NCBI GenBank assembly: GCA_027625095.1
Contig: JAQBXN010000007.1
Location: 62,001 to 126,000, forward strand
Direction: 5' to 3'
DNA: 64,000 nucleotides
Source: Planctomycetota bacterium
GTDB lineage: Bacteria; Planctomycetota; PUPC01; JACPCR01
This document shows positions 12,166-55,605 of this stretch, in pieces. Below the pieces are notes generated by a model. It ran no database searches and was not told the DNA's origin. It worked only from the letters and a program-made list of their open reading frames with translations. The position numbers and the translations under genes are program-made. How positions within the stretch are numbered: the first letter of the stretch is position 1; the number at the start of each line of letters is the position of its first letter.

Positions 12166-12345
12166 TCGAAGTGCTATTGCCTCTAATAGTCCGACGATTT
12201 TGCAAAAGCCTCAAAGTTCTCCCTCGTAATCTTTGATCCTCTCGGAGTTACAGAGCGCAGGATAATTTCGCACGGATGAAGAGGACCAGGGAAGAAATAA
12301 GCCACTTCACTGTCCGGTCTTTTGGGTAAGGCTCAATAGCGGGAG

Positions 12346-12565
12346 TTATGAGTAATGAGTAACAAGTAAGCGCGTGCTTAAGGGGCCGATGTTGTTTGAG
12401 TATCGGTTTGTTGGGGAGGGTGAATGGCGAAGCGTGAAATCGGAGTCAGCCGGAATAATTCAGTGTTCATTCGGCTGACACTCTCCTGTGCGGCCCTGTA
12501 TCCCCAATCCTGAATCCGCCATCAACAGAAACCGGCCCTCAAAGATCGCGCTTACTCATTACTCA
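12346..12565. repeat. Heptamer-ended element with terminal inverted repeats
   Basis: The left end (12346-12373) reads TTATGAG, TAATGAG, TAACAAG, TAAGCGC in 7-nt register. The right end (12547-12565) is CGCG followed by two TTACTCA-type heptamers, the reverse complement of the left end with about 19 of 21 positions matching. Inside lies an imperfect hairpin, GTCAGCCG (12445-12452) with CGGCTGAC (12472-12479), and a block AAACCGGCCCTC near 12529 that recurs in the copy at 53482-53629. The stop codon of the GH9 gene (12563-12565 on the minus strand) is the last three bases of a repeat heptamer. The 180 nt between the upstream stop (12165) and the element holds nothing I recognise. Confidence 0.75.
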
Positions 12566-15500
12566 TTCCTTTCCAAGACTCTCCAACGCCTGATGAATGG
12601 TCGCGGCGGCGATGGCGAAATGTGCGGTCTGGGGAAGGTAGTACTCCGTCGGGCCCGGATGAATGGGATAGTGGGGCTGGAGGTAGTACCGCACGTAGCC
12701 CCTGGGGTGGCCGTAAAGGGGCGGGTCGTAGTTGTCGCCTGGTTGCCATTTCACGTTGCCATCACCGGTGTCACGGAATGCCATCGTCGGCACCATGCCG
12801 TCGAAGGTGAAGAGTTTCCGCTCGCTCTTCATCCAATTCTGCAAGAACTCGGGAGATAGAAAGTAAAAAGTCCCGCCAGCTACCACACGCTCGCCAACTC
12901 CGTGGATCATGGAGAGGTCGGACATGTTTTTTCCCAGACACCACTGAAGTTGTCGCTCAGCCAATCTGATGATGGATTCGTCTTTCAGCAGCATCCCAAT
13001 CTCCGCAAGCGAATGCGCCAGCATCGGCCAGTAACCAATCGGCCGCTCTGCAGATGGCATTCGTGCCGGGGTCATCCCTTCCTCAGCAGAAAGCGAACGG
13101 GCCTGCCCCCAGGGATCGATAGCAGATACCTGCCGCACATGAGCCACGAAAGCTTTGAGGCTGGCCACTACCGGATCTCGTTCCGGGTGATGTGGGTATT
13201 CCTTCAGCAAATGACAGAGCGTCCAGACAAAATCCTGCAGGATGTTTCCATCGTGATGTGAGGCCCGGTAGAGTTCATCTGTGGTGCGATACAGCCGCTG
13301 GTTGAGTCCGGTGGCCAGTAGTCTTGCATGGTGATTCATACGTTCGAGGTATTTCGCTTCGCCGGTGAGTCGCGCCAGGTAGATTTCCGCGTAGAGGCCT
13401 TTGGCCGCCATCAGAAACTTTTCTGTGGTCAGCTCACCTGAGGTGCGCTGCCAGAAGCGATTGAATTCGTAATTACGCACGGCTGAGTTAAACAGACGAT
13501 CGCTCAGGACGGGTTCCAAGTCTTTTAGCAGAAGGCTTCCGCGGGCAGCCACACCTGCGGCCTGCGGCAAAGGTCCGACGCCAACCACGTAACGGTCGTT
13601 GCTGTAGAAAGGGATGTTGTCAAGGCCGCGCACCTGCGGCTTTGTGCCGAGATGATAGTTGCCGTCGGGGGCCTGATATTTGGGGAATGCGCGGTGAGCC
13701 CAGAGCAGTTCGTCAAGGCAATCGTTCGAAGTGCGGTCATTAAACGTGGGTCGGATTGTCTCGAGCAATCTGGAGGTGGCGAACAAGACGGAAGGCCAGT
13801 ATTCGACGTGTTTGATGTCGTCGCCGGCGTCGTAATAGCCGCCGAGCATATCTACCCGATCCGGTAAAAATAGACGCTCGTACATGCAGAATCGTTCTTC
13901 ATCGAGACTGGCAAGCATATTCGCGTCCTCGAGTGCCTCGGGCTCGTGAGCGCCGGGGATGGCGCAGTTCATGCGTTTGAAGTGGAGGCCATGCAAGGCG
14001 ATCTTTGAAAGCTTTCGATAGGCATCCCTCGATATGTTGAATGGGCCGGAAGACACCTGTCTGCCACTCTGAGTTGCGACGCACTGGTACCACCCCTCCC
14101 CTTCCTGAGACGTAAAATCAAAGGTGTAATAATACCGCTGGGTCGGCGGGTCATAGCTGTGGTAGCTCGCCTCACCGGCCTTCACGCTCTTGCCCGATGC
14201 GGTCACGAGAGAACACTGAACGGGTGCTTCCTGCAGGCTCTTGATCACAATCTGTTTGTCGCTCTTCGGATGGTAGCCGAGGAAGCTCGCCGTGATCTCA
14301 AGCGATTCTGCTCCATAACCACCGAACTCCGCATCATCGACCCAGACTGTTCCGCTCCGGTTCTCTTCGACTCGGATGGCCAGTGCCGCGAAGACAGCAC
14401 CGAACGGGGGCGTCGTCTTTATGGAGAGTCGCTTCCAATCGGACGTTCCAGTTATTGCGTCCTCACCTTTCGTACTGCCCATGAGCTGCAAACGTGGTGT
14501 ATGCAGTGCACTGGTTTGATCGTGATATTTCATGTCTGAATTCATGTCCGCCGAAAACCAGAGAATCTCGGGGAATACCTTTCCGCCGGCGCCTGCACAC
14601 TTCGCCCAGAAGCTGAATTCCTGCAGCTTGCCGTAATCGATCGAAGGCCAGTTGCAGGTGATACCAAAATCCTTATCCGTCTTTTCAATCTTCATCGAGC
14701 CGGCATGTCTGTAGCCGTCGCTTGCATCGTGCGTGAATTCGCCATCACCGGGGAGAATGTTGTAGAAGCTGAGCGTGTTCGGAAACTCCACCCGATCCGA
14801 AAAAATCTTTGAAAGCGACGGGGCAACCGTAGCGATGACCTGTTTGGGATACGGTTGCGAATTTTTCATTCGAAATTCACGCAATGAATACCACCAGGCC
14901 GGGCGGCCGCGATCGTCTTTGAGACTGAAATGTGGATTGGCTACCAGGTTGTGACCATCGAAGGTATCCGCAGGCGTCCACTCCTTCGGCTCTTCACGCG
15001 GCCTCAGCTCAGGTCTTGGATGGTATGCCTTGTAAGACTTTTTGTTTGCGAGCATGGTGCTCCAGCCGCAGTTTTCCTGATATACGACTTTACCGTTCTG
15101 GTCCTCTATGCGAATGGAGTTCAGGAACGCCTTGAAATTTTTGCCAACGAGTTTGATGTCCACATAGTGATCAAGCGCTTCGAAGTCGCCGTTGGGCACG
15201 AGGTTCCTGCCTGCCGTCAATGCTTCTTCCACATTCTGGCCTTCTGCCAACTCCACAGCCCGAAGGTCATCAATAAATACCGTCGCATCTTCACGCGTAC
15301 CCAAAAAGAAAAAGATGCTCTTTATGGGCTTCGGGGGCGTCCAGACATATTCAAGCGTCTGCCAGCCTTCTTTCGTTGGATTGATACCGAGCTGGCTGTT
15401 GAACGCCTGCCACTCCACCTTGCCGTCCATGTAAGTCACATGTTTGAGCGTGATCCCGAATGTGTATAAGCGTTTCGCATCCGGGACAGCCTTCTCCATC

Positions 15501-31482: not shown

Positions 31483-33096
31483 ATGAATCTGCATCGGGCC
31501 TGGTTGCCACACTTAATCCTGTCAATGGCTTTATTTTTCATCAGCGTCCTGTGGGTGCTCAACGCCTGGCCGCTCTCACCCGCGGGCCAGTGGGAGGAGA
31601 TCTACGCGTCGTCGCCCGCGTGGTTTTCCGTGCTGTACATCATCGGGCCCGCAGGGGCAGTCATTGCATTGGCCGCTGCAAATACAAAGCTCGACAGGAC
31701 AACAGCAGGATATCAATGTTTCCGAAAAGCGATGCCGGTCGCCCTGGTTGCAATCTGTTTCTGGTGTCAGAAAAGTGCGGTGCAATTGAGAATGGCTGGA
31801 GTTGAATCCAACTCCTTTTACTTCGCCGCGCCCATCGGCCCGGGGGCCTTTGTCGGGCAGGCGCTGAGTATTGGTGAGCCTCCGGTCGAGACCGGTCTGA
31901 AGTATCTTCAGACCTTCGACACAAACATCGGCGGCAGGCATTGGGGGGAATTTGGTGGCACTCGAGTCATTTCGAATCCACCTGGCGCGACCATGCTGTT
32001 CTACACCTGCCGAAAGCTTTTGGAGGCCTTACCCGTTTTACAGACCTTTTATTCGGGAGAGCCCCTGAAGCCAGCCGCGAGTGCGCTTGAAAAACGAGGT
32101 TATCTTGCACAAGCCCTCACGCAGTTCGGAGCGGATGTCTGCCTGCTTTTGATCGCTCTCAGTATGCCGCCACTTTTCTGGCTCGCGAATGAGCTCTTAC
32201 CTGAAGAGAAGGCAGTCCCCACAGTTCTGGGCGCCATGTTTATTCCGAGTCTCCTGGTCTTTAACTTCACAAAAGATGCGTACCAGGTATCTCTGGCTCT
32301 GTGGTTTTGGTTTTCGTTGCTGAAGGCGATGAAAAGACATTCAGATTTCTGGTCACTGCTGACCGGTGTTTTGTTTTTCATAGGCGTCCAGTTCTCACTT
32401 TCATTTCTCGTAGTGGATGCGACGGGTGGCGTCATATGTCTGCTCTACCTCTGGCATCGAAATGAAAAGCCTTTAATCAAAAAACAGGAATGGCAAGTAG
32501 TTGCCGTGGCAATCATTTCATGCCTTTCTTGCGTGGCGTTGGCGTGGCTCGTACTTGGATACAAGACATGGGCAGGGTTGTGGTCTGCCTATCTGGGGCA
32601 TCAACAGTATCACCGAGAATTTGGCGCTCCTTACGGCACGTGGGTATGGCTCAACCTTATTCATCTGCTTCTTTTTATCGGCGGGCCGGTGGCGGCGTCG
32701 ATTATTTGTGGCGGCTGGAGTCAGATACGCAGAAGGAGGCCAGACCGATCAGGGCCAGACCAATTGAGGGCAGACCAATCTTCTGGATCTGCTGCCGAAA
32801 TCGGCCTTACTCATTACTCATTACTCATTACGGATCCATGTTTTGTCGGATTGGTGGGCACCATTCTGGTACTAAATTTCACCGGAATGAATCTGTCGGA
32901 AGTTCCGAGGCTGTGGTTGTTTTTCATGCCGGTTCTCTATCTCACCTCTGAAAGGGCCGCGGGCATCAAGAGGCCGGCCGGAGTTCAGATAGCTCTGCTG
33001 ATGATGCAGATCGTGCAAGCTGCGGTTTTCACGATCTGTTTCGACCCCCTTGGCGGCTCTCATCGGGCAATCAATGGATTACTGGAAGGATTGTGA
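31483..33096 (+). CDS. Polytopic membrane protein with an in-frame repeat-derived insertion
   Basis: This is a 537-residue integral membrane protein with about 10 hydrophobic helices. Extracytoplasmic loops such as G-G-R-H-W-G-E-F-G-G and the overall layout recall GT-C glycosyltransferases or mannosyltransferases, but no catalytic motif is certain. The window's heptamer repeat sits inside it at 32737-32834 and is translated as a hydrophilic stretch (R-R-R-P-D-R-S-G..., then L-T-H-Y-S-L-L-I-T), flanked on both sides by apparently normal helix sequence. The ATG at 31483 starts the first membrane helix. Its TGA overlaps the ATG of the next gene (TGATG), so the two membrane proteins are probably co-translated and may act together. 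Confidence 0.65.
   Translation: MNLHRAWLPHLILSMALFFISVLWVLNAWPLSPAGQWEEIYASSPAWFSVLYIIGPAGAVIALAAANTKLDRTTAGYQCFRKAMPVALVAICFWCQKSAVQLRMAGVESNSFYFAAPIGPGAFVGQALSIGEPPVETGLKYLQTFDTNIGGRHWGEFGGTRVISNPPGATMLFYTCRKLLEALPVLQTFYSGEPLKPAASALEKRGYLAQALTQFGADVCLLLIALSMPPLFWLANELLPEEKAVPTVLGAMFIPSLLVFNFTKDAYQVSLALWFWFSLLKAMKRHSDFWSLLTGVLFFIGVQFSLSFLVVDATGGVICLLYLWHRNEKPLIKKQEWQVVAVAIISCLSCVALAWLVLGYKTWAGLWSAYLGHQQYHREFGAPYGTWVWLNLIHLLLFIGGPVAASIICGGWSQIRRRRPDRSGPDQLRADQSSGSAAEIGLTHYSLLITDPCFVGLVGTILVLNFTGMNLSEVPRLWLFFMPVLYLTSERAAGIKRPAGVQIALLMMQIVQAAVFTICFDPLGGSHRAINGLLEGL
32737..32834. repeat. Repeat element inserted in frame in a membrane-protein gene
   Basis: A 15-nt unit beginning CAGACC is repeated at 32740, 32755 and 32770 (CAGACCGATC, CAGACCAATT, CAGACCAATC), and the array ends in three TTACTCA heptamers (32807, 32814, 32821) followed by TTACGGA (32828). 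The TTACTCA heptamers are the same as those at 12552, 51740, 53616 and 54735, all of which are intergenic. Here the frame stays open through the whole stretch. Confidence 0.75.
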
Positions 33097-35171
33097 TGAG
33101 ACAGATCGATAAAGAACTTCTTATGAAAGCCTGTCTGTGTATGGCCCTCGGCGCTCTGGGACTTGGGGCCTTCGTGCGGGACCTGTGCCTGGTTCCCGAA
33201 TTACAAATTCGCATGTTCCACGGTTTTCATGAATCTGTAGCCGCAACATTGCCGGAAGCTGGTTACGGGCTCTGCACACTGATTGCTCTGATCACAATGC
33301 CCTGCGTAGCTTCTGTGTTTGCCTGTTCAGCCAGAGGCAGACATTCGGGGCCGTTCGTGCTTCGGTTCAGCCGGTTCGGCATGTTGCACAGCGTTTTTTT
33401 AATTCTCGTTCTTGAAATTCCTCTAACGCTGATATGGGGCCTGCTTGATGGCCTCCTCGGATTCCCCGTTCCACGAGCCCCCCTGGGCTTCCTCAGCCAG
33501 TATCTGTTCATCTTTGCCTTCTCCATCTGGCTTTGCCTCCATTTCTCGCTGTGGCGCTCTTTAAGCAAGCGCGGCGAAGAGAAATCGGAGCAAACCGATG
33601 AAGCCAGGAACGAAGCGACGCCTCCCAAGGATCCCTGGCTGCTTTACGTCTACATTTCCTGCGGCATTTATATCCTGATATTCGGTCTCATGGGCGTGCT
33701 GCAATGCCAAGCGTTATCGGTATCGCATATCGACAGTGTGATTTTCGAACGGCTCTATTGGAATACTCTCCACGGCCGTTTCGCGATGATCGATACCGGC
33801 ACAAACTTCACCGCGGAGCATGTATCCCTCACTATGTATCTTCTGCTGCCGCTGTATGCACTTTGGCCATGCCTCGAGCTGGTTTCGGTCTTCCAGACGG
33901 CCATGATCGGCATCGGTGGCATACCGGCATACCTGATCGCTCGAGAGGTACTCAAGAGGCGTCCTGTCGCTTTCTGCTTTACGGTGGCCTACCTGCTGAA
34001 TCCGGCGCTTCATTATTCTAATTCGGAAATCCGGGATACGATCTTTGACCCGAATACCTTTTCTGCAGCGTTGATTCTGTGGTCGTTTTATGGCGCTCTG
34101 CGGAAGAAATGGTGGCTATATTTGGGCATGGGCGCTCTGGCCATGTGGACTCGAGAGGACGTCTGTGTGTCGGTGTTCATGATAGGGCTCTATGTCGCCT
34201 TTATTCAGCGAGATTGGAAGGCCGGTCTGGGAAGCGCCTCGATGGGGATCGGCTGGTTGGCCTTATGTCTAGTCGTGGTCATCCCATCTGTCCGGGCCAG
34301 GCATGGGCAGCACGTTCACCCGCATGTGTTCATGTATTTTGCTCACATGGGGGACGAGATGGGGATGGAAGAAGGCAAAGATTTTGGGTTCGGCCATATG
34401 GTCAAGTACGCACTGACCGAGCCGAAGGGGATGTTGCTGCGACTCACCTCGCATCGAGATATCCAATTTTTTACCGATCTGGCTCTGCCGTTTGGATTTC
34501 TGGCACTGCTCGCTCCCGAAGCGCTCTTGATGGCTGTACCCGCGTTCGCACTGAGTATGCTGGCTGACGAACGATGGGAGCCGAATGTCTCGATCATGTT
34601 CTGGTATCACATCGTGCACATCCCTCTTGTCTTCATCGCCTCCATCATGGGCGCCTCAAGAGCGCCTTCTCTTCTGCGGTGGCTGCAAATCAAGTGGCCC
34701 AGACTTGCGATGCTGAACGTAAAGCCGGCTGAGCTGACCCGGGCTCTCGGCATCCTTGTGGTCTGCTGCTCGTTTGTGATGAGCGTCATGATTTCGAAAT
34801 GGCCGCTGACCATATCGTTCTGGGACTCCGCTGATTTTTACCGCCACTATTCCAAATACCTGTCACCAGAGGAGACCCTGTGGGTTCCTGAAATTCAGGC
34901 CCTCATCCCGAAATCAGAGTCAGTTGTAGCCACACGCTACCTGACCCAAAAGTTCTCACATCATTCGGATGTCTTTCGATTTCCGGCAGGGATCGCTGAG
35001 GTCAACTGGGTGGTCGTAAATCGCAATGACCGGTCGTTCCACGGATACACTTTCCATGGCATCGATTTCAGTGGCGACATGAATGCGATCAAGAATCTTC
35101 AGGAGAGCGACGACTTCGAAGTAGCGTACGAAAAAGGGCCGCTGATCGTCTTCCACCGGCGCGCCCATTAG
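33096..35171 (+). CDS. DUF2079-type polytopic membrane protein
   Basis: This is a 691-residue membrane protein with about 12 hydrophobic helices and a C-terminal soluble segment (about 590-691). D-T-G-T-N-F-T-A-E-H near residue 232, W-T-R-E-D-V near residue 349 and Y-F-A-H-M-G-D near residue 410 resemble the acidic, substrate-facing loops of DUF2079 proteins, which are thought to be related to GT-C glycosyltransferases. No catalytic activity is established. The ATG at 33096 overlaps the upstream TGA by one base, and GGAAGGA 7 nt earlier is a good Shine-Dalgarno. It is paired with the other membrane protein, so both may process a lipid-linked sugar. Confidence 0.75.
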   Translation: MRQIDKELLMKACLCMALGALGLGAFVRDLCLVPELQIRMFHGFHESVAATLPEAGYGLCTLIALITMPCVASVFACSARGRHSGPFVLRFSRFGMLHSVFLILVLEIPLTLIWGLLDGLLGFPVPRAPLGFLSQYLFIFAFSIWLCLHFSLWRSLSKRGEEKSEQTDEARNEATPPKDPWLLYVYISCGIYILIFGLMGVLQCQALSVSHIDSVIFERLYWNTLHGRFAMIDTGTNFTAEHVSLTMYLLLPLYALWPCLELVSVFQTAMIGIGGIPAYLIAREVLKRRPVAFCFTVAYLLNPALHYSNSEIRDTIFDPNTFSAALILWSFYGALRKKWWLYLGMGALAMWTREDVCVSVFMIGLYVAFIQRDWKAGLGSASMGIGWLALCLVVVIPSVRARHGQHVHPHVFMYFAHMGDEMGMEEGKDFGFGHMVKYALTEPKGMLLRLTSHRDIQFFTDLALPFGFLALLAPEALLMAVPAFALSMLADERWEPNVSIMFWYHIVHIPLVFIASIMGASRAPSLLRWLQIKWPRLAMLNVKPAELTRALGILVVCCSFVMSVMISKWPLTISFWDSADFYRHYSKYLSPEETLWVPEIQALIPKSESVVATRYLTQKFSHHSDVFRFPAGIAEVNWVVVNRNDRSFHGYTFHGIDFSGDMNAIKNLQESDDFEVAYEKGPLIVFHRRAH

Positions 35172-46222: not shown

Positions 46223-46731
46223 AAGTTTCTTCCTGGTTGTCGCTATGGCCATCCATTCAATTTGAAAGGAGGTAGTAAACCAATGTACCTGAAGTTCGCC
46301 GACGATATTCAGTATCATGAGACTCACGACCATGCAACGCGATCATCGGCTTGACGTCACCCGTATTGGGAGCCTCAAAATCATGCTGCTGATGAGATTG
46401 TATGGGGCCGGTGCTTTCGCATAACCGCAGATTCAGGATTCAGGACCAAAAGAAGTAGAGATCGACTGGCTTCAACAATTCGTAAGCGACATTGCCGGTG
46501 CGCGCCAACTCTCCCGTCTCATGATCCAACTGACAGGGCATCAACGCCTGCAATGCATGGACCCGGCCACACATAAGTCCCCAATGAGGCCAGCTCATCG
46601 GGGACCTTGATAATTGCTCAATTCAGGTAAGAGTGTCATGCCATTTCACCACTTCAATTCGGCGGCGAATCGGAGCGTAACAGCTATTCTGCCCTCCTTG
46701 ATTTTTTCTGTACCTGAAGGTTTTACGAAAA
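46223..46731. other. Divergent intergenic region with an inverted repeat
   Basis: This is 509 nt between two divergent genes with related domain sets. It holds an inverted repeat (46577-46582 GTCCCC with 46600-46605 GGGGAC, and 46584-46588 ATGAG with 46594-46598 CTCAT, loop GCCAG), and a doubled ATTCAGG heptamer near 46435. No T-run follows the hairpin on the plus strand, so it may be an operator-like or RNA structure. I see no gene here. Confidence 0.55.
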
Positions 46732-50691: not shown

Positions 50692-51684
50692 ATGACAGAG
50701 CCAGCCATCTCCTGGTCCTTCCCCTACCCCGATCCGTCTGTTGCTCCGGGACTCAATGGCGAGTTGGACGCCCGGCACGCGGGCGCCTGCAGCATCATCG
50801 AGTCAGCCAGCAGATATCACCTCTTTTATTGGGGCATCGGGTCGGACGGTGTGTATCGGATCTGCCGGGCGATGTCATCGGTAGATTCACCCAATGATTG
50901 GCAGCCCGGAGGCAGCATCCTGCAATCCCAACCTGATATTGATTACAACTCCGTCGGCCCAAGCTTTCCGGAGGTCGTCGTGGTGAACGACGATGAGTGG
51001 CTACTCTATTTCGGTGCCTGGGGTGGAAAACGTGACGATGGCAAATTGCCGAACCGAACCGGAGCCGCGGCCTCACACGACGGTGGCAAGACCTGGGAAT
51101 ATGTAAAAGACGAACCAGTCATTTCACTTGACCAGAATTACGATTGCAGCGGCACCGGGAGCGTAAGCGTGCTATATGAGGATGGCCTGTTCAGAATGTA
51201 TTACACCGCTATCGGGGAATACTTTGAGAAACCCGTTGGGGTACAAACGGGGCACGGGGACTTCATCCCCCGTATCGGGATCGGTTACGCTGAATCTGAA
51301 AATGGAATCGAGTGGCACAAACCTTATGACGAGTTGATGGTCGCGCCGCGTGGATTCGGCACTGAGCCCTACGAATACATTTCATCAAAACCATGTGTCA
51401 TCCGCGAAGAGTCAGGCTATCGAATGTGGCTTTCGACATTCGGGACAGCCTACCGCATTCGAAGCCTCGTAAGCACTGATGGGCTCCACTGGAACTGGAA
51501 CCCAAGCGGGATCGATGGCGAGTTCGGCATAGGCGCAAAAGGGGCATTTGATGACCACCAGCGTTCCTATGCCTGCGTGATCAGGCATCAGGAAGAATAT
51601 AGATGCTGGTACACGGGGAACGGATTTGGCAGATCCGGGATGGGCTATGCAGTCGGGAGGGGGAAGAAGGACCTTAGACCTTAG
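50692..51684 (+). CDS. Five-bladed beta-propeller glycosidase-like protein
   Basis: This is a 330-residue protein without a signal peptide. Repeated units with S-x-D-G-x-x-W (A-A-S-H-D-G-G-K-T-W, Y-A-E-S-E-N-G-I-E-W, V-S-T-D-G-L-H-W) and F-R-M-Y-Y-T / Y-R-M-W-L-S strands are typical of GH43, GH32, GH68 and GH130-like five-bladed propellers. D31 or E27 near the first strand and the E-P-Y-E-Y motif near residue 225 are candidates for catalytic acids. The family and substrate are open. The C-terminal K-K-D-L-R-P and the TAG stop are coded by the CCTTAGA-type heptamer repeat. It is cytoplasmic if the start is right, which points to oligosaccharide processing. Confidence 0.65.
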   Translation: MTEPAISWSFPYPDPSVAPGLNGELDARHAGACSIIESASRYHLFYWGIGSDGVYRICRAMSSVDSPNDWQPGGSILQSQPDIDYNSVGPSFPEVVVVNDDEWLLYFGAWGGKRDDGKLPNRTGAAASHDGGKTWEYVKDEPVISLDQNYDCSGTGSVSVLYEDGLFRMYYTAIGEYFEKPVGVQTGHGDFIPRIGIGYAESENGIEWHKPYDELMVAPRGFGTEPYEYISSKPCVIREESGYRMWLSTFGTAYRIRSLVSTDGLHWNWNPSGIDGEFGIGAKGAFDDHQRSYACVIRHQEEYRCWYTGNGFGRSGMGYAVGRGKKDLRP

Positions 51685-51760
51685 ACCGAAGAAATCGGGC
51701 AAAGACTGTTCTTCTGTCTCCTATCTAAGGTATAAGGTCTTACTCATTACTCATTACGTC
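51670..51760. repeat. Heptamer mosaic with inverted arms upstream of fhcA
   Basis: GACCTTA occurs twice (51670, 51677), followed by GACCGAA (51684). From 51705 a second register runs ACTGTTC, TTCTGTC, TCCTATC, then TAAGGTA and TAAGGTC (51726, 51733), two TTACTCA units (51740, 51747) and TTACGTC (51754). GACCTTA is the reverse complement of TAAGGTC, so the two arms can form a hairpin. The upstream gene's stop codon (51682-51684) lies in the left arm. Confidence 0.75.
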
Positions 51761-51845: not shown

Positions 51846-53498
51846 ATGTCCCTGACTAAGATTTCGGGCGGTACAATTTACGATCCACTGAATCAGGTAG
51901 ACGGCATCGTGGGTGATATCTGGGTGCGCGATGGCAAGGTAATTTCCGCACCGAGTGAAGGCACAAAAGCAGACAAAGTAATTGATGCCAATGGCCTGGT
52001 CGTCATGCCTGGCGGCGTCGATATGCACTGCCACATCGCCGGCCCCAAGGTGAATGTAGCCCGCAAGCTCCGTCCGGAAGACAAGCGTCTTGCAGACAAG
52101 GTGATGCGCACACCGAACACCCGCTCAGGCACGATGGGGAGTGTCCCGAGTACTTTCGCCACGGGCTACAAATACGCCGGGCTTGGTTACACCACCGCAT
52201 TCGATGCAGCCATCCCGCCGCTTGGGGCGCGGCACGCACACGAAGAGTTTCATGATACGCCGGTCATCGACAAAGGTTTTTTTGTCCTGATGGGCAATAA
52301 CCACTTTGTGATGCAGCAAATCAAAGAGAACGAACCCGAAAAGCTCAAGGGCTACGTCGCTTGGCTGCTGGCCGCAGCCAAAGGCTACGCCGTCAAAGCA
52401 GTCAATCCTGGGGGGGTTGAGGAATGGAAGAGTGGCGGCCCGAAGATCACCAACATTGACGACACGGTCGATTACTTCGAAGTCACTCCTCGCAAGATTC
52501 TCTGTGCGCTGGCGGATGCGGCGACCCAGCTCAAGCTTCCGCATTCTCTGCACGTCCACTGCAACAATCTTGGCCTTCCTGGCAACTGGACTACGACGCT
52601 CGACACGATGCAGGCACTCGAGGGCCGCAAAGCACATCTCACTCACATCCAGTTCCACAGTTACGCGGGCGGAGATGCGGACGAAGAAACCTTCGGTTCA
52701 CGCGTTCCCAAACTCGTCGAATATGTAAACGCTCACCCAAATCTAACGCTGGACGTCGGGCAGGTGGTGTTCGGTCAGACGACTTCGATGACGGGCGACG
52801 GCCCCCTCGGGTACTACCTCCACCAGGTGACCGGTCGTAAATGGTTCAGCTCGGATACTGAACAGGAGTCTGGCTGCGGAATCGTACCCATCGAATACAA
52901 GAACAAGAGCTTCATTCACGCGATGCAGTGGGCCATTGGGCTCGAATGGTTTCTCCTCGCCGACGATCCCTGGCAGGTGGTCATGAGCACCGACCATCCC
53001 AATGGTGGCTCGTTCATGGCTTATCCCCAGATCATTCACCTGCTCATGGACAGCGGTTACCGTAAGGACATGTGCAAGACTATTCACAAAAAAGTCCTTG
53101 AGCGCTCAATGCTCGGAAAGATCAACCGGGAGTACTCGCTATACGAAATTGCCATCATTACCCGAGCCGGCCCGGCAAAAATTCTGGGTCTCAAAGATAA
53201 AGGGCATCTCGGCCCCGGCGCCGATGCAGACATCACGATTTACACCCCGCAGAAGGACATCACCGAGATGTTTTCCATTCCGCGTGTTGTTATCAAGAGC
53301 GGAGAAGTGCTCGTTGAAGAGGGACACATCCGACAGGATTTCACCGGTAAGACATTTTACGTTTCCCCGAGCTACGATGAAGGACTGATCACAGACATCA
53401 GAGAATGGTTCGAGAGGACGTATACGATTCAGTTCGAGAATTACCCGGTGGACGAACATTACATGCCTAAGAGGGAATGCGTAATGAGCAATGAGTAA
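51846..53498 (+). CDS. fhcA: Formyltransferase/hydrolase complex subunit A (formylmethanofuran dehydrogenase subunit A-like)
   Basis: This is a 550-residue zinc amidohydrolase-fold protein matching FhcA/FwdA. G-V-D-M-H-C-H-I-A-G with H61 and H63 forms the first metal-binding motif, and N-V-A-R-K-L-R-P-E-D-K follows as in this family. H-V-H-C-N-N-L near residue 239 and S-T-D-H-P-N-G-G near residue 381 hold further metal ligands (H and D). In methylotrophs FhcABCD hydrolyses formyl-methanofuran to formate after transfer from formyl-H4MPT, finishing formaldehyde oxidation. It is first of three fhc genes here (A, D, C). Its last residues (V-M-S-N-E) and stop lie in a TAATGAG repeat. The FhcB subunit is not encoded adjacently. 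Confidence 0.88.
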   Translation: MSLTKISGGTIYDPLNQVDGIVGDIWVRDGKVISAPSEGTKADKVIDANGLVVMPGGVDMHCHIAGPKVNVARKLRPEDKRLADKVMRTPNTRSGTMGSVPSTFATGYKYAGLGYTTAFDAAIPPLGARHAHEEFHDTPVIDKGFFVLMGNNHFVMQQIKENEPEKLKGYVAWLLAAAKGYAVKAVNPGGVEEWKSGGPKITNIDDTVDYFEVTPRKILCALADAATQLKLPHSLHVHCNNLGLPGNWTTTLDTMQALEGRKAHLTHIQFHSYAGGDADEETFGSRVPKLVEYVNAHPNLTLDVGQVVFGQTTSMTGDGPLGYYLHQVTGRKWFSSDTEQESGCGIVPIEYKNKSFIHAMQWAIGLEWFLLADDPWQVVMSTDHPNGGSFMAYPQIIHLLMDSGYRKDMCKTIHKKVLERSMLGKINREYSLYEIAIITRAGPAKILGLKDKGHLGPGADADITIYTPQKDITEMFSIPRVVIKSGEVLVEEGHIRQDFTGKTFYVSPSYDEGLITDIREWFERTYTIQFENYPVDEHYMPKRECVMSNE

Positions 53499-53629
53499 GA
53501 AAGACGGAAGACGGAAGACGGAAGACGGAAGAGTCGAGCGCCAACCAGGAACTAAGAACATCAATCGCCAACCGGTATCCAGATAAAACCGGCCCTCCAA
53601 GCCAGCGCTTACGTATTACTCATTACTCA
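53482..53629. repeat. Heptamer mosaic between fhcA and fhcD (inverted relative to the copy at 54517)
   Basis: From 53482 the units are TAATGAG, CAATGAG, TAAGAAA, four tandem GACGGAA (53503-53530), then GAGTCGA, GCGCCAA, CCAGGAA, CTAAGAA, CATCAAT and CGCCAAC in unbroken 7-nt phase. The right end (53609-53629) is TTACGTA then two TTACTCA. The block from about 53532 to 53611 is the reverse complement, with few differences, of 54539-54618. It starts inside the end of fhcA and finishes 10 nt before the fhcD ATG. Confidence 0.85.
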
Positions 53630-53639
53630 TAAGATTCCC

Positions 53640-54533
53640 ATGACCATCAACGGCGTCGAAATCCAGGATACCTACGCGGAAGCCTTCGGCATGACCGGGG
53701 CCCGGTGTATCGTTACCGCTGCGAACGAGCGATGGGCAAAGATCGCCGGCGAGACGGCCAGCGGCTATGCGACTTCCGTTATCTCATGCGACGCGGAAGT
53801 CGGGATCGAGTCCGTGCTGTCTGCAGAGGAGACGCCGGACAATCGACCCGGCGTGAGCCTGTTGTTTTTTGCCTTCAATACCAAGTCCCTGGAGAAGGCC
53901 GTTGCTAACCGCATCGGGCAGTGCATCATGACCTGCCCGACCACCGCGTGCTACGACGGACTGCCCGGCTCAGAAAACACCATCGCCGTGGGTGGAGCCC
54001 TGCGTTATTTCGGTGACGGATTCCAATTCAGCAAACTAATTGCGGGGCGTCGCTACTGGCGCCTGCCGGTAATGGATGGTGAATTCACGTGCGAGGAAAG
54101 AGTCGGCACGGCTAAAGGCGTCGCCGGAGGAAACTTCCTGATTCTCGGTGAGACTCAGGCAGCAGCTCTAACCGCGGCGGAAAAGGCCGTCGAAGCAATG
54201 AACAACGTCAGTGGCATAATCATGCCATTCCCGGGCGGCATCGTCCGTAGCGGCAGTAAGGTTGGCAGCAAATACAAGAAGCTCGTCGCCAGCACGAATG
54301 ACGCCTATTGCCCTACCCTCCGTGGCCTGGTGCCAACCGAATTGCCTGAGGGGGTGAATGCTGTCTACGAAATCGTCATCGACGGCCTGACCCTTGGAGC
54401 TGTTGAAGAAGCCACGCGTGTCGGCATCCGTGCCGCCTGCACTGAAGGCGTAGTCAGGATTTCGGCAGGCAACTACGGCGGCAAGCTCGGGAAATATTTG
54501 ATAAAGCTAAGGCACGTAATGAGTAAAGAGTAA
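53640..54533 (+). CDS. fhcD: Formylmethanofuran-tetrahydromethanopterin formyltransferase
   Basis: This is a 297-residue protein matching Ftr/FhcD. I-N-G-V-E-I-Q-D-T-Y-A-E-A-F-G-M at residues 3-18 is the diagnostic N-terminus, P-T-T-A-C-Y-D-G-L near residue 100 and M-P-F-P-G-G-I-V-R-S-G near residue 199 are conserved, and N-D-A-Y-C-P-T-L-R near residue 221 is near the active site. It transfers the formyl group between the methanopterin carrier and a methanofuran analogue in the cytoplasm. The length is normal. The gene is flanked by two inverted copies of the heptamer element, and its terminal residues V-M-S-K-E and stop lie in the downstream copy. Coding runs in the same direction as fhcA and fhcC. 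Confidence 0.93.
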   Translation: MTINGVEIQDTYAEAFGMTGARCIVTAANERWAKIAGETASGYATSVISCDAEVGIESVLSAEETPDNRPGVSLLFFAFNTKSLEKAVANRIGQCIMTCPTTACYDGLPGSENTIAVGGALRYFGDGFQFSKLIAGRRYWRLPVMDGEFTCEERVGTAKGVAGGNFLILGETQAAALTAAEKAVEAMNNVSGIIMPFPGGIVRSGSKVGSKYKKLVASTNDAYCPTLRGLVPTELPEGVNAVYEIVIDGLTLGAVEEATRVGIRAACTEGVVRISAGNYGGKLGKYLIKLRHVMSKE

Positions 54534-54748
54534 AGAATAAGCGCTGGCTGGGAGGGGCGGTTTTATCTGGATACCGGTTGGCGATTGATGTTCTTAGTTC
54601 TTGGTTCTTGGTTGGCTCTTCTGTCTTCCGTCTTCCGTCTTCCGTCTTCCGTCTTCCGTCTTCCGTCTTCCGTCTTCCGTCTTCCGTCTTCCGTCTGCGG
54701 TCTTCTGTCTGTGGTCTACGGTCTACGGTCTTTCTTACTCATTACTCA
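54517..54748. repeat. Long heptamer mosaic between fhcD and fhcC
   Basis: The left end has TAATGAG (54517), TAAAGAG, TAAAGAA and TAAGCGC (54538). From 54588 the register is continuous for 161 nt: ATGTTCT, TAGTTCT, TGGTTCT, TGGTTGG, CTCTTCT, ten perfect GTCTTCC units (54623-54692), then GTCTGCG, GTCTTCT, GTCTGTG, two GTCTACG, GTCTTTC and finally two TTACTCA (54735-54748). The block 54539-54618 is the inverse of part of the copy at 53482-53629, where the GACGGAA (reverse of TTCCGTC) array has four units instead of ten. fhcC starts 20 nt later. Confidence 0.9.
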
Positions 54749-54768
54749 TCAAGTTCACCCTCACGACC

Positions 54769-55605
54769 ATGTCATTAACCCTCAAAACCAAACCCATCGA
54801 GCAAATCCCAATCGAGGCCGATTGCATCACGCCTGACAAGTTGCGTGGACTCTCGGTTTCGGAAATCGAAAAGTTACAGGTGCTTCAGGGAAACCAGAAT
54901 CTGCCGTTTGCAGAGTTCTTCGATGTTTCGGGTGACCCTTCCGACGGTGACATCGTCATCGAAGGCAATTGCGTCAAGGTGAAACTCATCGGCACCGGAA
55001 TGTCCGAAGGCAGCATCACCGTCCATGGCAACGTTGGCATGCATACCGGCGCAGAAATGAGTGGTGGCCGATTGGAGGTCTTCGGGAATGCCACGGATTG
55101 GGTCGGTGCAGAAATGAAGGGCGGGCATATACACATCCACGGCGATGCGGGACACCTTGTGGGCGGCACTTATCGCGGCGGTAATCGGGGAATGACCGGC
55201 GGCGTCATTCTTATCGATGGCAATGCGAAGAACGAAGTTGGATGCGTCATGCGAAGGGGTCTTATCGTTATCGGTGGAGATGCCGGTGATTTCGCAGGAG
55301 CCGACATGCTGGCCGGCAGCATTCTTGTTTTCGGCCTGCCAGGTATCCGGTCAGGCGCGGGTATGAAACGCGGCACCATCGCGGTTTTCGGCGAAGAGCC
55401 GGAGGATCCAAAACGCACCTTGGAGTTGCTGCCCACCTTTTTCTATGACTGCGATTACGAGCCGCCATTCCTGACTCTCTATCTGAACCAACTCGCAGGG
55501 TGGGGATTCAAGTTCCCTGACCACGTCCGCTCCGGCAACTTCCGACGCTACAGCGGGGACCTTGTGGAAATGGGCAAAGGGGAGATTTTGGTCTGGCAGG
55601 CATGA
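54769..55605 (+). CDS. fhcC: Formyltransferase/hydrolase complex subunit C (formylmethanofuran dehydrogenase subunit C-like)
   Basis: This is a 278-residue beta-helix protein of the GXGXG fold, like the glutamate synthase C-terminal domain. Repeated G-A-E-M-x-G-G-x-x and G-x-x-x-G-M-x-x-G units (G-A-E-M-S-G-G, G-A-E-M-K-G-G, G-M-T-G-G, G-A-D-M-L-A-G, G-A-G-M-K-R-G) form the turns, typical of FhcC/FwdC, a structural subunit of the formyltransferase/hydrolase complex. The frame continues upstream through the heptamer repeat to 54601, but that part is repeat translation; the ATG at 54769 starts the protein. The stop lies 24 nt before the convergent ilvD gene ends. Confidence 0.88.
   Translation: MSLTLKTKPIEQIPIEADCITPDKLRGLSVSEIEKLQVLQGNQNLPFAEFFDVSGDPSDGDIVIEGNCVKVKLIGTGMSEGSITVHGNVGMHTGAEMSGGRLEVFGNATDWVGAEMKGGHIHIHGDAGHLVGGTYRGGNRGMTGGVILIDGNAKNEVGCVMRRGLIVIGGDAGDFAGADMLAGSILVFGLPGIRSGAGMKRGTIAVFGEEPEDPKRTLELLPTFFYDCDYEPPFLTLYLNQLAGWGFKFPDHVRSGNFRRYSGDLVEMGKGEILVWQA

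Follow-up and report, generated by a model that had tools for sequence, protein, structure and literature searches.

The repeat-bearing gene and its homologues

The window, by which we mean the whole stretch of 64,000 nt that was analysed, comes from a single MAG of a Planctomycetota bacterium (8.95 Mb in 262 contigs, with 5.8% contamination). It carries a gene for a polytopic membrane protein, referred to here as the host gene, in which two short tandem repeats lie in frame within a loop between two membrane helices. The features of this locus are as follows.

31483..33096, + strand: host gene, polytopic membrane protein of 537 residues (open reading frame and translation, homologues)
32737..32834, + strand: segment with the repeats, corresponding to codons 419-451 and lying in the loop that joins two membrane helices (alignments, hydropathy)
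32738..32780, + strand: 15-nt tandem in three copies, coding for PDRSG-PDQLR-ADQSS, local
32807..32831, + strand: TTACTCA in 3.6 copies, the dispersed heptamer of the genome, translated as LTHYSLLIT
33093..35171, + strand: gene for a DUF2079 membrane protein, downstream of the host gene (Pfam; 47% identity to its counterpart in the relative L107)

The host protein belongs to an unnamed family, and neither Pfam nor NCBIfam gave a match above cut-off. A search of the PDB for sequence relatives found none, and the AlphaFold model has a mean pLDDT of 35. As a preliminary description of this DNA had stated, three CAGACC units at 15-nt spacing (starting at 32741, 32756 and 32771) and the TTACTCA heptamers are present at codons 419-451, and the reading frame from 31483 to 33096 stays open across them. 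Homology to relatives continues in the same frame on either side of the repeat.

Among the relatives found, the closest named one is a groundwater Planctomycetota MAG (L107), related at the family level, whose host-type protein shares 46% identity with the window protein and is identical in sequence to the protein of G001/L032. Profile searches of genome contigs gave no match when the single host protein was used, and a two-row alignment recovered only the family-level relative. The DUF2079 gene lies next to the host gene in L107 also, providing a synteny anchor; given the 46% identity of the host protein and the same neighbour at 47%, we regard the L107 protein as the syntenic orthologue.

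In the alignment with this orthologue, a clean gap separates the SQIRRR stretch from the helix that follows. In the window protein, anchor residues P402 and N470 are separated by 67 residues, compared with 44 in the orthologue, and 44 is likewise the median for 21 homologues, 12 of which have exactly or nearly this length. The extra residues are missing from the syntenic relative and from nearly all of the 21 homologues, corresponding to a net gain of 23 codons (69 nt) with the frame kept. The preliminary description had expected a gap of 30-33 residues and the addition of about 32 hydrophilic residues. The gap does fall at the site, but at 23 residues it is shorter, and although the CAGACC-encoded part is hydrophilic, the THYSLLIT encoded by the heptamer is not. 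Because the repeat-bearing DNA, at 98 nt, exceeds the net gain of 69 nt, some of the ancestral loop sequence has evidently been replaced or has diverged. In two homologues, both paralogues, this loop is also longer, at 72 and 55 residues, indicating that it tolerates changes in length.

Short repeats can lead to misjoins in a fragmented metagenome assembly such as this one, and an assembly or sequencing artefact would be one explanation for the segment. We consider this very unlikely: the unique flanks on both sides code for a single conserved protein without a change of frame, the neighbouring gene is the one also found there in the relative, and the segment, at about 98 nt, is shorter than the usual sequencing read.

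The 15-nt repeat is local to this gene. CAGACC pairs at 15-nt spacing occur twice in the window, compared with none in 100 shuffles, and no other occurrence was found in 830 kb of the genome; the unit had been taken for part of a dispersed repeat, whereas only the heptamer recurs. All nine period-15 arrays in 464 kb lie in coding sequence (two of these rows being the CAGACC array of the window itself), and since the unit amounts to five codons the tandem looks like the product of ordinary duplication, in codon-sized steps, within a coding loop. The 98-bp segment as a whole has no second copy in the 8.95-Mb genome, in which only its heptamer part finds matches elsewhere, and comparison of the non-heptamer part with intergenic gaps gave only word matches of chance length. 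Its predicted fold, which at -27.6 kcal/mol was computed with no shuffle control, consists of several short stems and not of a single long palindrome, and Rfam gave no match within the window.

Distribution and orientation of the heptamer

Further heptamer arrays in the window are the following.

12342..12369, - strand: intergenic heptamer array, reverse orientation
12552-12567, + strand: forward heptamer array near the array at 12342..12369
51740..51757, + strand: intergenic heptamer array
53609..53630, + strand: heptamer array of the start-proximal type, separated from the ftr ATG by about 10 nt
54516..54533, - strand: reverse heptamer array GTAATGAGTAAAGAGTAA, forming the last five ftr codons (VMSKE) and the stop codon
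54735..54748, + strand: heptamer array, with the next start codon about 20 nt downstream

The TTACTCA heptamer is lineage-specific, the exact 18-mer TTACTCATTACTCATTAC being found 67 times in the source genome and not once in 245 relatives from the phylum. Sites resembling TTACTCATTACTCA number 16 in the window, compared with 0.17 expected, and seven is the commonest tandem period among periods 4-15 in 464 kb.

The arrays are mostly intergenic, with TTACTCATTAC located just upstream of start codons and the complement GTAATGAGTAA just past stop codons. Among 59 arrays of at least two units, in genomic DNA that was partly picked for holding arrays and with genes and starts predicted by a home-made hexamer model, 23, read as TTACTCA, end at most 25 nt before a start on the same strand, compared with none in reverse. 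Within 25 nt past a stop codon the bias is the opposite one, with eight arrays as the complement (TGAGTAA) and one in the sense orientation. Where a same-strand start follows an intergenic array, it does so within 25 nt in 22 of 43 cases; uniform placement would give 7.3. A Shine-Dalgarno-like 4-mer is found in none of 21 array-led genes, compared with 22% of 366 others, and the leaders of array-led genes fold less stably than the rest (-2.7 against -8.7 kcal/mol, p about 2e-9).

All three frames of a TTACTCA tandem give one and the same set of seven codons (L L I T H Y S), so that it contains no stop codon and no ATG, GTG or TTG in any of them and can be read through, whereas TGAGTAA has stops in every frame. 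Each orientation should thus do no damage at the gene end where it occurs, and we infer that codon content accounts for much of the orientation of the arrays. A positive role of TTACTCA as an open leader is possible.

The array in the host gene has the orientation and ATG spacing of the start-proximal arrays (TTACTCATTAC-GGATCC-ATG at 32838), and it might be taken to mark an internal translation start, the gene being split or giving an internal product. This is the least credible of the explanations considered: the ATG at 32838 opens just 37 codons in another frame (the open reading frame ending at 32951), while the host frame runs on into conserved helices.

Many arrays appear to be the ends of composite intergenic segments, since left and right ends co-occur and some gaps share a core. 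Both ends are found in one gap in 13 cases, compared with 2.3 expected, and the gaps flanking ftr (53466-53640 and 54506-54775) share an inverted stretch of 130 bp (88% identical), with heptamer ends on either side of a non-repetitive core. Possibly the copy in the host gene represents one end of a segment of this kind, and a mobile palindromic element like those of Rickettsia would have been inserted in frame as a unit. We think this improbable, however. The in-gene segment has no other genomic copy, its non-heptamer part resembles intergenic gaps only at chance word length, the left-hand GTAATGAGTAA end is missing from the gene, and the gene is longer by a net 69 nt, not by 98.

A dispersed intergenic core of ~140-156 bp with 88-94% identity, bounded by GTAATGC/TTACTCA-type heptamers, is also seen at L137:9852-10250, C222:168738-168937 and L139:2685-2980. 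Other heptamer families (AAGACGG, GGTCTAC, GACCTTA and GATTCAG) and octamer families occupy intergenic gaps, with sites at 53501-53532, 54617-54710, 54713-54731, 51670-51687 and 46430-46445 in the window and at C144:149369-149621.

Arrays at the ends of coding sequences

In the preliminary description all other copies of the repeat were held to be intergenic, and the copy in the host gene to be the sole coding case. For the window the former is nearly correct, the end of ftr (54516-54533) being the exception. Across the genome neither statement holds: several other arrays are coding, either at N-termini or as C-terminal tails, and the clearer coding roles are probable signal peptides elsewhere.

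The array at L131:8726-8794 gives a predicted N-terminus of MKLSPITHYSLLITSLLITPLLA followed by EDFS, in frame with a MORN-type protein. Heptamer DNA encodes nearly all of this predicted signal peptide; in a paralogue from the same genome the signal peptide is an ordinary one, MKLAFLSGCVLCMSAAVAE. In an outer-membrane-efflux-type protein, the array at L084:1436-1550 encodes a stretch ending in HLLLITHYLLLIFLCGC and followed by TNPDKY; homologues from other families have a lipobox at the same place. A third array, at L085:1484-1565, gives the N-terminus MPESSFYSLLITYYAALFLLLSTSAAE, and the homologues have signal-peptide-like N-termini. With this support from homologues or a paralogue, the arrays in L131, L084 and L085 probably form signal peptides, one of them with a lipobox. 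The hexamer caller favoured later starts for L131 and L084, which would place the arrays in the leader; comparison with homologues, however, speaks for the longer forms. Start-proximal arrays may repeatedly have become signal peptides because, when facing the start, they have no stop in any frame and code for the fairly hydrophobic LLITHYS.

Similar predictions were noted at two further loci. An array-encoded signal peptide look-alike is predicted at C222:111384, and a prepilin-like protein at L079:1418-1950 (reverse strand), with a sequence that includes SFTILEMVIAIGILAIGIV, has a predicted leader encoded by heptamer arrays.

At the other end of genes, reverse arrays give C-terminal VMSxE-stop tails, as in ftr (54516-54533 of the window), L133:6430 and L030:1811. 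The alignment of ftr with its best solved homologue stops at the residue before the tail; another homologue aligns into it. One occurrence of TTACTCATTAC within an RluD-like gene (L006:2185) was set aside as a coincidence, because the encoded ITHYEV resembles a motif that we take to be conserved in the RluD-like family.

Since seven is not a multiple of three, a coding array might also act as a heptanucleotide contingency locus, in which the gain or loss of one 7-nt unit switches the membrane protein, and the exported proteins, on or off. One or two heptamer units more or fewer in the host gene are computed to give a truncated product; for a single unit the protein would comprise 461-491 residues, and truncation would come much earlier in the products of L131, L085 and L084. 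With 3.6 units only, however, slippage is probably slow, and most arrays lie outside coding sequence. We regard switching of this kind as unlikely, though as less so than insertion of a mobile element.

Proposed origin and comparison with known repeat systems

The explanation that we favour, and consider rather probable, is that TTACTCA is a lineage-specific heptamer of gene ends, that its gain within the loop of the host gene has been tolerated as a spacer, and that arrays elsewhere have turned into signal peptides and tails. The host gene would have gained the heptamer array, together with the adjoining codon-sized 15-nt tandem, in a loop of variable length between membrane helices, the array arising by slippage or by copying from the intergenic arrays. 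The gain would have been kept because a net 69 nt is divisible by three and stop codons are absent from the array. By default, the additional loop residues are most likely a passive spacer. Elsewhere, arrays at 5' ends would have been drawn into the reading frame, probably as the hydrophobic cores of signal peptides, and reverse arrays at the 3' ends of genes would provide C-terminal tails and stop codons.

A wider reading, which we put forward only tentatively, makes the heptamer a recurrent source of new protein, in the form of signal peptides, tails and an occasional loop. If it is true, the non-triplet unit would also make the array-bearing genes frame-switchable.

Several bacterial phyla are known to carry heptamer repeats between their genes. 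This genome offers a concrete and testable route from a non-coding repeat to a working protein segment, through probable signal peptides, tails and a loop. It also carries a warning for annotation, in that start codons beside such arrays need care.

Rickettsia palindromic elements are palindromic, measure roughly 100-150 bp and occur in many full-length copies. The window copy, in contrast, has no second full-length copy and its parts are two simple tandem repeats. One in-frame case of a Rickettsia palindromic element has been described (PMC5656822), and like these elements the window repeat is otherwise mostly non-coding, lies in frame in a protein gene and is missing from orthologues. The analogy drawn in the preliminary description is therefore apt for the outcome but not for the copy structure, the 98-bp unit being single, its CAGACC part local and the net gain 69 nt.

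The short tandemly repeated repetitive (STRR) heptamers of cyanobacteria form private sets of heptamer tandems across intergenic DNA. Judged by description they are like TTACTCA in this respect, although they belong to another phylum and have other sequences. STRR heptamers are mentioned for Calothrix (PMC4692102).

The TAACTGA direct repeats of marine Beggiatoaceae and some Cyanobacteria and Bacteroidetes (MacGregor 2015, PMC4679880) are also heptamers, whose tandems are mostly intergenic, facing a start codon a few nucleotides downstream and usually with no ribosome-binding site; a minority lie within open reading frames, mostly near the protein ends. TTACTCA behaves in the same way, in being tandem, mostly intergenic and start-facing, with no Shine-Dalgarno-like motif and with a minority in open reading frames. 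The two differ in their codon content. Start-facing TAACTGA has stops in all frames, and its coding copies are consequently in reverse, whereas TTACTCA is open when it faces the start, so that start-proximal arrays can turn into N-terminal coding sequence.

The topology of TTACTCA is also that of the GGGAATC and GGGGA(C/T)T heptamers of Xanthomonas and Nostoc, which lie antisense at most 50 bp upstream of an open reading frame or sense at most 50 bp past a stop codon, and which are under-represented in coding regions (Rehm 2015, PMC4692102). Those heptamers are G-rich and quadruplex-forming, whereas TTACTCA is not G-rich. The behaviour of heptamers at gene ends is thus already known from Beggiatoaceae, Xanthomonas and Nostoc; what is less expected in the present genome is the repeated recruitment of arrays as probable signal peptides.
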